Position numbers and translations under genes: made by a program. The notes under the pieces are model-generated. The model was not told the origin of the DNA. It searched no databases and worked only from the letters and a program-made list of their open reading frames with translations. From NCBI GenBank assembly GCA_021789095.1, contig JAJYJX010000059.1, positions 1 through 12,748 of the forward strand: a DNA stretch of 12,748 bases, read 5' to 3'. The DNA is from a bacterium (GTDB lineage: Bacteria > JAMCPX01). Positions 6,993 through 11,741 of the stretch are shown in pieces. Positions within the stretch are counted from its first letter, which is position 1. Every line of letters begins with the position of its first letter.

Positions 6993-7582
6993 TATATATG
7001 TTTAAACCCATGCACTATTGAGTTAACAAGAAAGCCGATGCTTACATGCATGTCTTCGAGTTTTATGAGCGCTGAAAACAGAAACAAAGCCGTAAACACC
7101 ACAAATATTGAAATCGCATAGTAAAAGCATGGTATAAACTTATCAGTAAGAATGGAAAGATTCAGACCTTTCGCAAAACCTTGCAATCTGTCGACTAGAC
7201 CCCCGTTTCTCCATGGGCCCCTATAGCTGTCTGATCCTGCACTGTCATTCAAATTATCAGATGTATCAATAATACTGTCCGAACCGTTTTCTATCTGGTG
7301 TATAAGATCTTGTTGAATACCGGTGATGTTGCCCCTATTGGCATAATCGCCGGTATTCCTGTGGTTTCCGGCATTCATGCTTGCTTCGGCGATTACAGGC
7401 ATGCCACCCTGTTTGTCGCGCATTTTATATTTTTCATTTTTGTTATCCGGTATCCGGTGTTCGCCCGATTTTATTGCAATAGGATTTTTACAGACAGGAC
7501 ACCTTACCATGGATATACCATTCCTGTAATTATCCTTCGTGAATATGAATTCATTGCCGCATTTGTTGCACAAAACCTTCAT
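6992..7582 (-). CDS. zinc-ribbon protein with C-terminal membrane segment
   Basis: A 196-residue protein. The N-terminus is an MJ0042-type zinc ribbon with Cys at 5, 8, 28 and 31 (CNKC and CPVC), a fold common at the start of Deltaproteobacteria-type membrane and regulatory proteins. A polar, Asn/Gly-rich region (about 40-145) has no recognisable domain. One hydrophobic segment covers about 152-173 (CFYYAISIFVVFTALFLFSAL), and a weakly amphipathic stretch follows to the C-terminus. The zinc ribbon is probably cytoplasmic and tethered by its C-terminus. A GGCGGAAG lies just before the ATG. The start overlaps the regulator's stop (ATGA) and the stop overlaps birA's start (TAATG). Function unknown; zinc binding and topology are inferred from motif and hydrophobicity. 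Confidence 0.82.
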   Translation of the reverse strand: MKVLCNKCGNEFIFTKDNYRNGISMVRCPVCKNPIAIKSGEHRIPDNKNEKYKMRDKQGGMPVIAEASMNAGNHRNTGDYANRGNITGIQQDLIHQIENGSDSIIDTSDNLNDSAGSDSYRGPWRNGGLVDRLQGFAKGLNLSILTDKFIPCFYYAISIFVVFTALFLFSALIKLEDMHVSIGFLVNSIVHGFKHI

Positions 7583-9258
7583 TCTTCCGCCTGAATAACA
7601 TTATTTTTTAACAGTGTGTTCATAATATCCATTCCAGCCTGCGGATCCGGATTGAGCAGAAACGAGGATGTCAATATGTCATTCTTACCGTTGAATATTC
7701 TTGTCAGCTCCTCCTTTTCTTCATCTGCGTTGAATCGGTGCGACGGATTAATTATAAACCTTTTTTTAAAACTTCCGAATACAGGTTCAATTCTTCTGAC
7801 CTCATCCAGGAGCCTTAATCCGTCCATCAACAGTGTCTGCGTATCTATGTCTATTCTTGGCTCACCTATAATATCCTTAAACTTTATATCAAATTCCCCT
7901 TCTGTGAGGAACAGTATCCTATACACGGCATTTGCCCTTGTGAGATCGCCATAATAGGCATCTACCAGTCTGCCTTTATTGAATAATAACCATCCAATCT
8001 CGTTTGCATCGTTTATCTGTATCGTTCCCGATTTTCTGTTCAGTTCCAGCATCTGTATAAGTTCCACTATTGATATATCCTGCAGATTACCCGTAAATCT
8101 TGTTGTACTGCTGGAATCTGCCGGCCTGCTTGACATGCTCAAAAACACAGTCTTTTGTCCCTGATCAGTAGCGGTAAATTTTATGAGTTTAAGAATAAAC
8201 AGGGTATAGAGAAATCTATATGCATCGTCATGGGCCAGTCCGCTTTTACCTATCAACTCATACATACTTCTTTTACCATTAATCAGACTCATTAATCTGT
8301 TAAAGGATTGCGGAAATTTAAAATCTTCTATATTGAAAATATTATCAGGCGTAAAACTTACCACTTCGCCCTGAGCCTCCAGCTTCTTCTTTATGTATTC
8401 TAAGTCTGTTTTAATTTTTATTCCTTCGAACAGAACAATCGGGAATGATTCCTTTATCGATGTCATTTCTTTTATGCCGCCGATCTTTTCTTCCTTCGTA
8501 TACTCTATGCCTTCCCATAAAAACATATCCAGTATTATTGCCTTCATATGGTCAGAAACAGCATGTTCCAGGACATCATCCCCTATGGCTCCAAGCGTTA
8601 TAAGCGCATCTCCCAGCCTTATGCCTGTTTTATTCATTATATCATAAGCTGCTCCTAAAACACCTTCTGTTACAAGACCTTTATTTATAAGCCATTTATC
8701 GAGTCTTTCATTATCGTTATTGCTTACAGCAAAAACTGGATTGCCTCCGTCCCAGTAAATTTCCTTTACCGTGCCGCTCTTGCCGTAGCAGGTTGTCTTT
8801 CCGGTCCATAACATATGAGCGAATTCGGAAAGCATTTCTTCAGCTGTCTCAGCTGTATATATTTCGAGTTTTTCGCTTGGGAGATCGTACGATTCTGCTC
8901 TTTTCAACAGAGACATTAATTCTTCTTCATTCACGGGCTTTTTTAACAGCGCATGTATACCCCATCTTTTATTAACATTTTCCTGCTTATTATCCGGAAT
9001 GCTGTTCATAAATACTATGAACTTGGCATATTCACCATGAGGCGTGCCCTTGAGGCGTTTGACAAGCTGATAACCATTCAAACCTGGTAACAGGCTGTCA
9101 ACAATGACGATCTTATACGCATACTTGCCTATAGCATCGATAGCTTCTATCGGTGAAGAAGCAGCATCGTAGACATAATTGTTATCGCGCAGCATATTCT
9201 CGATGCTGTTTTTAATATCCGGCAGCCATATAACTGTTAGCAGTTGGTGTGATTTCAT
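7579..9258 (-). CDS. receiver-like and double PATAN/DUF4388 regulator
   Basis: First gene of the minus-strand operon, 559 residues from the chosen start. Residues about 6-120 form a CheY-like receiver: the phospho-acceptor Asp is kept (D54 in IVDSLLPG) and so is the Lys of KKPV (K107), but the acidic pair after strand 1 is missing, replaced by VIWLPD (9-14). Residues about 130-255 resemble a PATAN/DUF4388 domain ([17 protein letters not shown], then [12 protein letters not shown], 214-225). Residues about 388-465 are a clear second copy ([44 protein letters not shown]). PATAN domains mediate protein interactions in PatA- and FrzS-like motility or polarity regulators. A longer frame opens at an ATG at 9303, but that codon lies inside the promoter spacer, so I chose the ATG at 9258. 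The stop overlaps the next start (ATGA). Confidence 0.87.
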
Positions 9259-9294
9259 ATATATAATTTGATAAAGACATTTATTGTAAAAAAC

Positions 9295-9323
9295 AGTATA
9301 CATACTTATTGCAAACCGGTCAA
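9295..9323 (-). promoter_or_regulatory. sigma70-type promoter of the minus-strand operon
   Basis: On the minus strand the -35 element TTGACC (9318-9323) and -10 element TATACT (9295-9300) are separated by exactly 17 bases. Transcription would start near 9288, giving a leader of about 30 bases before the ATG at 9258. This is the only strong promoter match I see for the nine-gene operon. Not experimentally shown. Confidence 0.6.
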
Positions 9324-9408: not shown

Positions 9409-9564
9409 ATGAAAAGAACATATCAGCCCCATAACATAAAAAGAGCAAGGACACATGGTTTTTTATCGCGTATGGAAACCCGTTCCGGCAGGACAGTTAT
9501 AAACAAGAGAAGGGCGAAAGGCAGGCGCCGCCTGACAGTTAAAATCGGTGGTAAGCCATTTTAA
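9409..9564 (+). CDS. rpmH: 50S ribosomal protein L34
   Basis: A 51-residue, strongly basic protein of the large ribosomal subunit, where it binds 23S rRNA near the exit tunnel region. The sequence begins [18 protein letters not shown], contains [19 protein letters not shown] and ends in the lysine-rich KIGGKPF tail; this is the full L34 family pattern. Family members are about 44-52 residues, so the protein is complete. The start is set by the GGAGA at 9398-9402. It is the first gene of the rpmH-rnpA-yidD-yidC cluster, and its last codons overlap the probable start of rnpA. Confidence 0.97.
9547..9551 (+). promoter_or_regulatory. possible ribosome binding site of rnpA within rpmH
   Basis: GGTGG lies six bases before the ATT at 9558, the inferred rnpA start. 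It also encodes the conserved Gly-Gly of L34, so it would be present anyway; support is weak. Confidence 0.3.
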
Positions 9565-9896
9565 AGATTCGCGGTCTCTCTAAAAAAGAAAAGATTGTTT
9601 CATCTGCTGATTTCGAGTCTATAAAACATAAAAACAATAAATCAGAAACAGCCCATTTTATCATACTGGGGCGTACAAATTCGTTGAATACACCAAGATT
9701 AGGCATTATAGTTAGCAGAAAAGTCGGTAATGCTGCAAAAAGAAACAGGATAAAAAGGTTGATAAGAACATTCTTTAGATTACATAAGAATAACATGCAC
9801 AATACCGATTATATCTTTATAGCTAAAAATGACATAGACACCCCCGGATATGGACAGGTAGAAAAAGAACTGGCAAAAGCAGTATGCATAAAATAA
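9558..9896 (+). CDS. rnpA: ribonuclease P protein component, apparent ATT start
   Basis: This small basic protein binds the RNase P RNA and helps it cleave the 5' leader from pre-tRNAs. The family signature is unmistakable: [16 protein letters not shown] (residues 7-22) matches the N-terminal L-x-K-x-x-[RK]-[IL]...F region, and [19 protein letters not shown] (46-64) followed by IKRLIR is the RNR box. The frame runs from a TAA at 9552-9554 to the TAA at 9894-9896, and between that first stop and the RNR box there is no ATG or GTG; the first TTG (9684) would delete the first 42 residues. An ATT at 9558 gives 112 residues, the normal length; an ATT at 9567 is the alternative. The start overlaps the rpmH stop, so coupled translation is likely. 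The identity is secure and the start is inferred. The 3' end overlaps yidD by 13 bases. Confidence 0.88.
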
Positions 9897-10114
9897 AGTT
9901 AATTGCTAATACACTGGTAATATACATTATAAAGCTCTACAGGACCACAATATCACCCTTACTTGGGGCAACATGCAGGTTTAACCCGACATGCTCGGAA
10001 TATGCTATTACGGCCATACAAAGATATGGGATCTTGAGAGGAGGCTCATTGTCCGCAAAAAGGATCCTGAAATGTCACCCGTTCCATCCCGGGGGAAATG
10101 ATCCGGTACCCTGA
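9884..10114 (+). CDS. yidD: membrane protein insertion efficiency factor YidD
   Basis: A 76-residue inner-membrane-associated protein that assists insertion of proteins by YidC and Sec. The family hallmarks are all present: [10 protein letters not shown] (19-28), [11 protein letters not shown] (31-41) and [14 protein letters not shown] (63-76), including three conserved cysteines. An N-terminal amphipathic or hydrophobic helix (about 5-18) fits peripheral membrane attachment. The length is typical and the C-terminus ends right at the DPVP motif. The ATG lies inside the last codons of rnpA (13-base overlap), and the stop is separated from the yidC ATG by a single base, so the three genes are translated as a tight unit. 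Confidence 0.96.
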
Positions 10115-10115
10115 C

Positions 10116-11741
10116 ATGGAAAACAGAACTCTATTAGCAATAGTTTTATCATTTTTGGTGCTTTTCATTTACCAGTTGTTTTTTGCACCCGCACCGGGGA
10201 AAAAAGTCACGCCAAAGCCTGTACCTCAAACGGTGCAGCAACAGCCAACCGCACAACAAAATGTTATATATCCACGTAAGAGTAATGATAATGTTCCGGG
10301 ATCGAAAATAATATATGTAAGTACTCCGTTTTATAATGCAGAGCTTTCAACCAATAATTTTACGATAATGCACTGGTATTTAAAGGATTACAGAACCGAA
10401 CTTGAGAAAACCAGCCCGCCTGTAGAAGTCATAGGTCGTGTAAAGGGAGTTGCTTATCCTATGTGGGAAAGTTTTGACGGCTCAAGCTTCACAATGTCTT
10501 CAAACATAAGCTATGCATGTTCTGCATTGAGCGCTACTATTAAAGACACGGATAACCATGAACAAATTGCATGCTCTCACAGAGCAGGTTCAATTGGTAT
10601 AAAGAAAGTCATTACATTCTATGGAAATTCTTATACTGCAACTGTTACACTTGAACTCACAAATTATTCAGATAAACCTGTTGTAGAGAGGCTGGGGGTA
10701 AACTGGAGCGGATTATCGGGTGAGCTGGGATCAAGGTATGATATTGCCGATGGAATTGTATTAATAAACAACAGCAGGGAGACCATTGAAGCTAAATCCC
10801 TTAACCTTTCAAAATCTTATGATGGTATAATACAGTGGTTCGGCCTTGAGAACAGGTATTTCATTCAGACGGTCTTGCCGCATGAGCCCGAGCAGTCACA
10901 TCTCTACGCGGCAAGAATAAATAAACCAGAGAACGGCCTGATTCCTTTGCTGCTTACTTATGTTTACAACCCCGTGACCGTCGGGCCGCATTCAACCGGG
11001 AGCAAGACATACACTATATTTCTCGGTCCGAAGGACATCGACTTCCTGAACAGGGCAGGCTCCCACCTCGGCAGGGCACTGTATTTTGGCTGGTCAGATG
11101 TAATAGCCAAACCGCTTTTTTACGTTATGAAATTCATTAACAGATTTGTGGGCAATTATGGATGGACAATATTCATCCTGACCATATTGATACGGATCAT
11201 ATTGTTTCCGATCGGACAGATCGGCTTTAAATCAATGCGACAGATGCAGAAGATAGCGCCAAAGATCAATGAGCTTAAAGAGAAATATAAGAATGATAAA
11301 GAACGCCTGTACAGGGAAACAACAAATCTTTACAGGAGCTATAAAATAAATCCTCTCGGAGGATGTCTTCCGATGCTTATGCAGATACCCATATTCTTTG
11401 CACTGTATGAAGTTTTACTGCTTTCAATAGAGTTAAGGCATGCTCCATTCATATGGTGGATAAACGACCTGTCCGCACCGGATACCATTGGTACAGTTTA
11501 TTTGGCAGGTATGCATATAGGCATTCATATACTGCCTTTAATAATGGGCGTTACCATGCTATTCCAGCAACTGCTTACACCGACGACAGCAAGCCAGGCG
11601 CAGGCAAAAATGATGATCTGGCTAATGCCCATAGTTCTTACAGTATTATTTTGGGGCTTCCCGGCAGGCCTTGTTCTTTATTGGACTGTAAACAACATTT
11701 TCAGTATAGGCCAGCAGTACTATATTTTAAAGAAATACTGA
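10116..11741 (+). CDS. yidC: membrane protein insertase YidC
   Basis: YidC inserts and folds inner-membrane proteins, alone or with SecYEG. The 541-residue protein begins MENRTLLAIVLSFLVLFIYQ, the standard first membrane segment (about 5-23). A Pro/Gln-rich linker and a large periplasmic P1 beta domain follow (about 60-325), typical of Gram-negative YidC. The conserved core contains TM2 with the groove arginine (R360, equivalent to E. coli R366), a cytoplasmic coiled hairpin (373-410), NPLGGCLPMLMQIPIFFALY (412-431), the SPTT-like LTPTTA (487-492) and the last segment FPAGLVLYWTVNN (515-527). The C-tail is very short (ILKKY), without the basic extension seen in some lineages. I chose the ATG at 10116 because MENRT is the family start; an in-frame ATG at 10098 would add six residues. 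Its stop overlaps the lipoprotein gene's ATG (TGATG). Confidence 0.97.
   Translation: MENRTLLAIVLSFLVLFIYQLFFAPAPGKKVTPKPVPQTVQQQPTAQQNVIYPRKSNDNVPGSKIIYVSTPFYNAELSTNNFTIMHWYLKDYRTELEKTSPPVEVIGRVKGVAYPMWESFDGSSFTMSSNISYACSALSATIKDTDNHEQIACSHRAGSIGIKKVITFYGNSYTATVTLELTNYSDKPVVERLGVNWSGLSGELGSRYDIADGIVLINNSRETIEAKSLNLSKSYDGIIQWFGLENRYFIQTVLPHEPEQSHLYAARINKPENGLIPLLLTYVYNPVTVGPHSTGSKTYTIFLGPKDIDFLNRAGSHLGRALYFGWSDVIAKPLFYVMKFINRFVGNYGWTIFILTILIRIILFPIGQIGFKSMRQMQKIAPKINELKEKYKNDKERLYRETTNLYRSYKINPLGGCLPMLMQIPIFFALYEVLLLSIELRHAPFIWWINDLSAPDTIGTVYLAGMHIGIHILPLIMGVTMLFQQLLTPTTASQAQAKMMIWLMPIVLTVLFWGFPAGLVLYWTVNNIFSIGQQYYILKKY

Follow-up and report, generated by a model that had tools for sequence, protein, structure and literature searches.

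An ATT triplet over the end of rpmH as the probable, conserved start codon of rnpA

The rpmH-rnpA locus

The window, a 12,748-nt stretch of contig JAJYJX010000059.1, carries rpmH, rnpA, yidD and yidC on the forward strand (Table 1), which is the standard order of this operon. The product of rnpA (RnpA) is the protein part of RNase P, a tRNA-trimming enzyme. The 3' end of rpmH reads GGT GGT AAG CCA TTT TAA, and the ATT at which we propose that rnpA starts is composed of the third base of CCA and two bases of TTT, with rnpA in the -1 frame of rpmH. The tail of L34 beyond residue 44 falls outside the L34 profile. At the other end of rnpA, the ATG of yidD at 9884 overlaps the gene by 13 nt (9884-9896), and rpmH, rnpA and yidD are thus linked one to the next by overlaps. 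Upstream of rpmH, in the position that dnaA occupies in many bacteria, lies a divergent minus-strand gene (7579-9303) for a protein with a response-regulator receiver and DUF4388. No match to Rfam at gathering thresholds and no tRNA was found in the window, the output of a promoter and terminator scan was uninformative, and local folding of the junction RNA gave no consistent structure.

Table 1 Features of the rpmH-rnpA region; positions are those of the window.
Feature	Position	Strand	Properties
rpmH, ribosomal protein L34	9409..9564	+	51 aa; ATG start; TAA 9562-9564; PF00468 6.2e-23, TIGR01030 1.7e-23
SD-like GGTGGT	9547..9552	+	5 nt before ATT; codes for Gly-Gly of rpmH; anti-SD duplex about -8.4 kcal/mol
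TAA in rnpA frame	9552..9554	+	rules out an rnpA start farther upstream
ATT, proposed rnpA initiator	9558..9560	+	conserved in 8/8 relatives; CCA wobble constraint; overlaps rpmH stop (ATTTTAA)
rnpA, RNase P protein component	9558..9896	+	112 aa from ATT; PF00825 2.2e-28, TIGR00188 2.2e-22
TTG, first canonical codon of rnpA frame	9684..9686	+	rejected as start; would remove 42 residues
yidD	9884..10114	+	PF01809 4.2e-30
yidC	10116..11741	+	PF02096 5.3e-61, PF14849 1.9e-28

The rnpA frame and its candidate starts

The gene was identified as rnpA by matches above curated profile cut-offs, by an RNR motif (KRNRIKR) and by the order rpmH-rnpA-yidD-yidC. Counted from the ATT, the Pfam Ribonuclease_P match covers residues 7-108 (98.9 bits, cut-off 22.3) and the NCBIfam rnpA match (TIGR00188) residues 9-107 (79.4 bits, cut-off 38.35), and the alignment of solved RNase P proteins begins at residues 6-8. 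RnpA is intact and conserved, and its gene is present in a single copy in the genome.

The frame begins TAA(9552) GCC ATT(9558) TTA AAG ATT CGC GGT CTC TCT AAA and closes with a stop at 9894-9896. Its canonical codons (ATG, GTG or TTG) are TTG 9684, TTG 9759 and ATG 9795, with no others. A preliminary description of this DNA had reported the frame to be open from the TAA, which was confirmed on re-reading, and to contain no ATG or GTG. The latter holds upstream of 9684, where our scan of the window found no ATG, GTG or TTG, and fails downstream because of the ATG at 9795, which lies far too late to be the start. The same description had placed the conserved N-terminus from codon 7 after the ATT, in agreement with the Pfam match, and had noted the overlap of the ATT with the rpmH stop, which the coordinates bear out. 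It had also named TTG 9684 as the first TTG, 42 codons after the ATT, with the loss of part of the conserved fold if used, and the profile matches agree. Because the profile and structure matches begin at residues 6-9, initiation at TTG 9684 would cost the protein roughly the first 40 profile positions. No canonical start is compatible with the conserved N-terminus and, given the in-frame TAA at 9552-9554, ATT 9558 is the one plausible initiator that remains.

Conservation within the phylum

Nine genomes from one family and four genera were sampled in the phylum, eight of which contain rnpA; the eight species are related and represent fewer than eight independent observations. The comparison of rpmH-rnpA junctions that the preliminary description had proposed found the ATT at the same place in all eight, in the junction CCATT(T/C)T(A/G)AA(A/G), across the four genera and with RnpA identity down to 55%. 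Everywhere the Pro-Phe-stop of rpmH lies over the ATT-Leu-Lys of rnpA, and start and stop overlap as ATTTTAA or as ATTCTGA/ATTCTAA.

Codon 2 of rnpA is TTA, CTG or CTA (all Leu), codon 3 is AAG or AAA (Lys), codon 6 is one of the four Gly codons and codon 7 one of several Leu codons, and codons 4-5 vary freely among the eight genomes. Given these synonymous changes at codons 2, 3, 6 and 7, the frame looks translated from about codon 3 or earlier. Stops in the rnpA frame one or two codons before the ATT in two species (the window's genome, G000, and G003) confine the start to a handful of codons, among which ATT alone is both a known initiator and common to all eight genomes. A landmark in the RnpA core lies 18 codons after the ATT, and the canonical starts of 109 rnpA genes from other bacteria peak 17-18 codons before it. 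Measured against this landmark, the ATT occupies the position of the initiator in other RnpA proteins.

Synonymous constraint on rpmH

The rpmH Pro codon that supplies the A of the ATT is CCA in all eight species. CCA makes up about 10-15% of Pro codons in the well-sampled genomes (G000, 13%; G001, 11%; G002, 10%) and 14-33% in the remaining ones, for which the samples are small. When seven genomes were aligned, only one of the seven conserved Pro columns of the region was all CCA, namely the one at the rpmH 3' end; CCA stands there in the eighth genome as well. rpmH itself has no need for the A of CCA, yet this A is fixed, as expected if the ATT is needed. On this codon comparison, the ATT is held against synonymous drift of rpmH, which supports selection on the start codon.

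Start-codon census

A census of about 0.9 Mb from G000, G001 and G002 (part of each genome) compared 155 reciprocal ortholog pairs in 112 families. Only two families had no canonical start over a conserved N-terminus, infC (ATA) and rnpA (ATT); the remaining flags were put down to antisense shadows, to leads in another frame, or to short leaders that did not align and preceded an ATG. Non-AUG starts of infC are established, and the gene served as the positive control. Since only infC and rnpA were recovered from these parts of three genomes, the lineage does not use odd starts freely, and a genome-wide use of such starts is ruled out.

In the window's family infC begins ATA GAA AAG GAA. The ATA start is present in seven genomes of the family (L079, L080-L085), none of which offers a canonical alternative. 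In G005 the infC locus (L078) differs in type and may lie on a contaminant contig.

Start codons of rnpA in other bacteria

We surveyed 124 rnpA loci, mostly from different families, in public genome collections. A canonical start (ATG, GTG or TTG) was present 11-32 codons before the core in 109 of them, in a sample that favours well-scoring rnpA. Among the other 15 loci, several could start upstream of rpmH, as Thermus does, or a little way into the frame, and in three (G030, G163 and G302) an ATT lies at the expected position over the rpmH end.

The ATT recurs among relatives of two of these genomes. In all 14 readable loci from the order of G163 it precedes the rpmH end by 13 nt, and in eight of them the frame opens only two codons before it. 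In the order of G030 the same ATT, also 13 nt before the rpmH end, was found in 18 loci from several families; the triplet is fixed and its flanks are not. Here it is built from the rpmH codons AGA/CGA and TTA/TTG, in genomes of which most have a GC3 of 0.58-0.72, with TTA at 0-6% of Leu codons and AGA at 1-16% of Arg codons near the locus. CGC CTG, CGT CTG and similar pairs predominate in relatives whose rnpA has a canonical start or an ATG upstream, a comparison that measures the cost of keeping the ATT rather than an unbiased frequency, as the ATT loci were listed for having it. The overlap is 7 nt in the window's phylum versus 13 nt in the two other orders, and this difference in geometry suggests that the ATT may have arisen separately there.

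Four loci of the G030 order (L149, L151, L171, L174) lack the ATT and carry an ATG in frame a short way before rpmH, in a Thermus-like manner; both solutions may thus exist within one order. In four further loci, L242 (G381), L248 (G175), L268 (G401) and L288 (G286), the rnpA frame runs through the end of rpmH with no ATG, GTG or TTG before the core and no ATT. In L248 a CTG stands directly at the rpmH TGA (CTGA).

The preliminary description had proposed ATT as the likely initiator. Its presence in eight of eight relatives, the signature at synonymous sites, the lack of any other plausible start in two species and its recurrence in at least two other orders all uphold that proposal, and from these sequence data we strongly infer that ATT 9558 is the initiator of rnpA.

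Proposed mechanism and alternatives

We consider it likely (probability about 0.8) that AUU 9558-9560 initiates rnpA by re-initiation after rpmH, yielding little RnpA per L34, probably in an IF3-sensitive manner. Ribosomes would end rpmH at the overlapping UAA and then re-initiate, aided by the SD-like GGUGGU inside the end of rpmH. The initiator tRNA would be placed on AUU with low efficiency, so that much more L34 than RnpA would be made from each rpmH-rnpA mRNA. Re-initiation is proposed because start and stop overlap (ATTTTAA) and because GGTGGT lies 5 nt upstream; an overlap of the start with the upstream stop together with an SD-like sequence is what translational coupling would call for. 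Paired with the anti-SD taken from the 16S of G001 and G004, the SD-like sequences form duplexes of -5.0 to -9.7 kcal/mol across the eight species. In six of the eight the pairing is moderate (-5.0 to -5.7 kcal/mol), which counts against this reading.

RnpA output would be expected to fall when IF3 is in excess and to rise when it is short, since IF3 discriminates against AUU and its excess also inhibits re-initiation. The infC gene of the same family, with its AUA start, would be controlled in the same way. Both re-initiation and starts at non-canonical codons are reduced by an excess of IF3, to a smaller extent where an SD is present (PMC2268962), and the GTC start of sigR is repressed by IF3 (PMC5472188). 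Reporters with AUU or AUA starts reached about 10% of the AUG output in S. aureus in poor medium (PMC13009471). The low, coupled or regulated translation suggested in the preliminary description would fit the start-stop overlap, the SD-like sequence and this literature.

Re-initiation under IF3 control has one serious competitor, in which AUU is the start and is merely tolerated within the rpmH overlap, with no regulatory role. We regard this as possible, although it has rather less than an even chance, and its probability overlaps with that of re-initiation because both take the ATT as the start. An ATG in place of the AUU would alter the terminal Phe codon of rpmH and thereby the C-terminus of L34. 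RnpA is required in small amounts, and a weak start would be affordable. However, the L34 tail past residue 44 lies outside the profile and should be able to vary, divergence of this depth would have allowed a better start to arise, and the ATT solution recurs in other orders. To us the ATT-start arrangement appears to be a selected means of limiting RnpA relative to L34.

The other explanations carry far less weight. A -1 ribosomal frameshift from rpmH, giving an L34-RnpA fusion, would be in keeping with the -1 frame of rnpA and with a frame that is open into rpmH in several relatives. It is nevertheless very improbable: the rnpA-frame stops in G000 and G003 leave just the last rpmH codons for a shift, inspection of those codons found no conserved slippery heptamer (X XXY YYZ), T-AAG, G-CCA and A-TTT offer no good re-pairing, and conservation in the other orders concerns the ATT triplet rather than the A run. 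Equally improbable is initiation at TTG 9684 or at a different near-cognate codon (ATT 9567 or TTA 9561). TTG is a canonical start and the other codons are possible in principle, but TTG 9684 would remove the conserved N-terminal part of the fold, codon 4 (9567) is ATT in the window alone, and codon 2 is variable. A canonical start upstream of rpmH, nested as in Thermus (PMC9841429), has an in-frame upstream ATG in G005 and in some members of the G030 order to recommend it, but we give it next to no weight: it is ruled out for the window by the TAA at 9552-9554, a stop likewise directly precedes the ATT in G003, and the open frames of G002, G004, G007, G008 and G001 have no canonical codon upstream. 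Finally, a fault in sequencing or assembly, or decay of rnpA, conceivable in a fragmented assembly (203 contigs, 92% complete), has a negligible chance, as the same junction stands in eight genomes with RnpA intact, conserved and single copy; independent assemblies exclude the hidden ATG or GTG against which the preliminary description had cautioned.

Significance and comparison with known systems

A core RNA-processing gene with a probable AUU start, fixed across the phylum as sampled and present in at least two other orders, is accompanied here by signs of selection on synonymous positions in the gene upstream. Tentatively, and with somewhat less than even odds, the AUU-start rnpA over the end of rpmH could be a recurrent, selected form of regulation in several lineages, which would set the RnpA:L34 stoichiometry and, alongside infC, tie tRNA-processing capacity to initiation conditions via IF3. 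If re-initiation and IF3 control operate as proposed, RnpA synthesis should depend on the translation of rpmH and on IF3. Gene callers limited to ATG, GTG and TTG would be expected to truncate or miss rnpA in these genomes, and an ATT conserved through rare codons of an overlapping gene offers a genome-wide route to hidden AUU starts.

Textbooks treat bacterial AUU starts as rarities (infC, and pcnB in E. coli), and infC combines an AUU or AUA start with autoregulation by IF3. In the open-access literature that we searched, subscription journals being outside its scope, no report of an AUU (ATT) start for rnpA was found. Like infC, rnpA is a core information-processing gene with a non-AUG AT(T/A) start conserved over wide distances. 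Unlike infC, it overlaps the rpmH stop, its product is not the regulator, and its control by IF3 is putative. Further non-canonical starts are those of pcnB (AUU; PMC4245954), cvfC1 (AUU) and ccpN (AUA; PMC13009471) and sigR (GUC; PMC5472188), in which, as proposed for RnpA, a weak start keeps a protein scarce and such starts are repressed by IF3; these are other genes, without the rpmH overlap.

In Thermus, rpmH is nested in rnpA and a single initiation site, AUGGAUG, is used (PMC9841429). The same two genes stand in the same -1 relation there, with an overlap that expresses both, whereas rnpA of the window would start at the end of rpmH on AUU rather than upstream on AUG, with no long N-terminal extension. 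The junction also resembles termination-reinitiation overlaps of the ATGA type in having its start within a few nucleotides of the upstream stop and an SD-like sequence inside the upstream gene, and differs from them in that the start would be AUU, not AUG or GUG.
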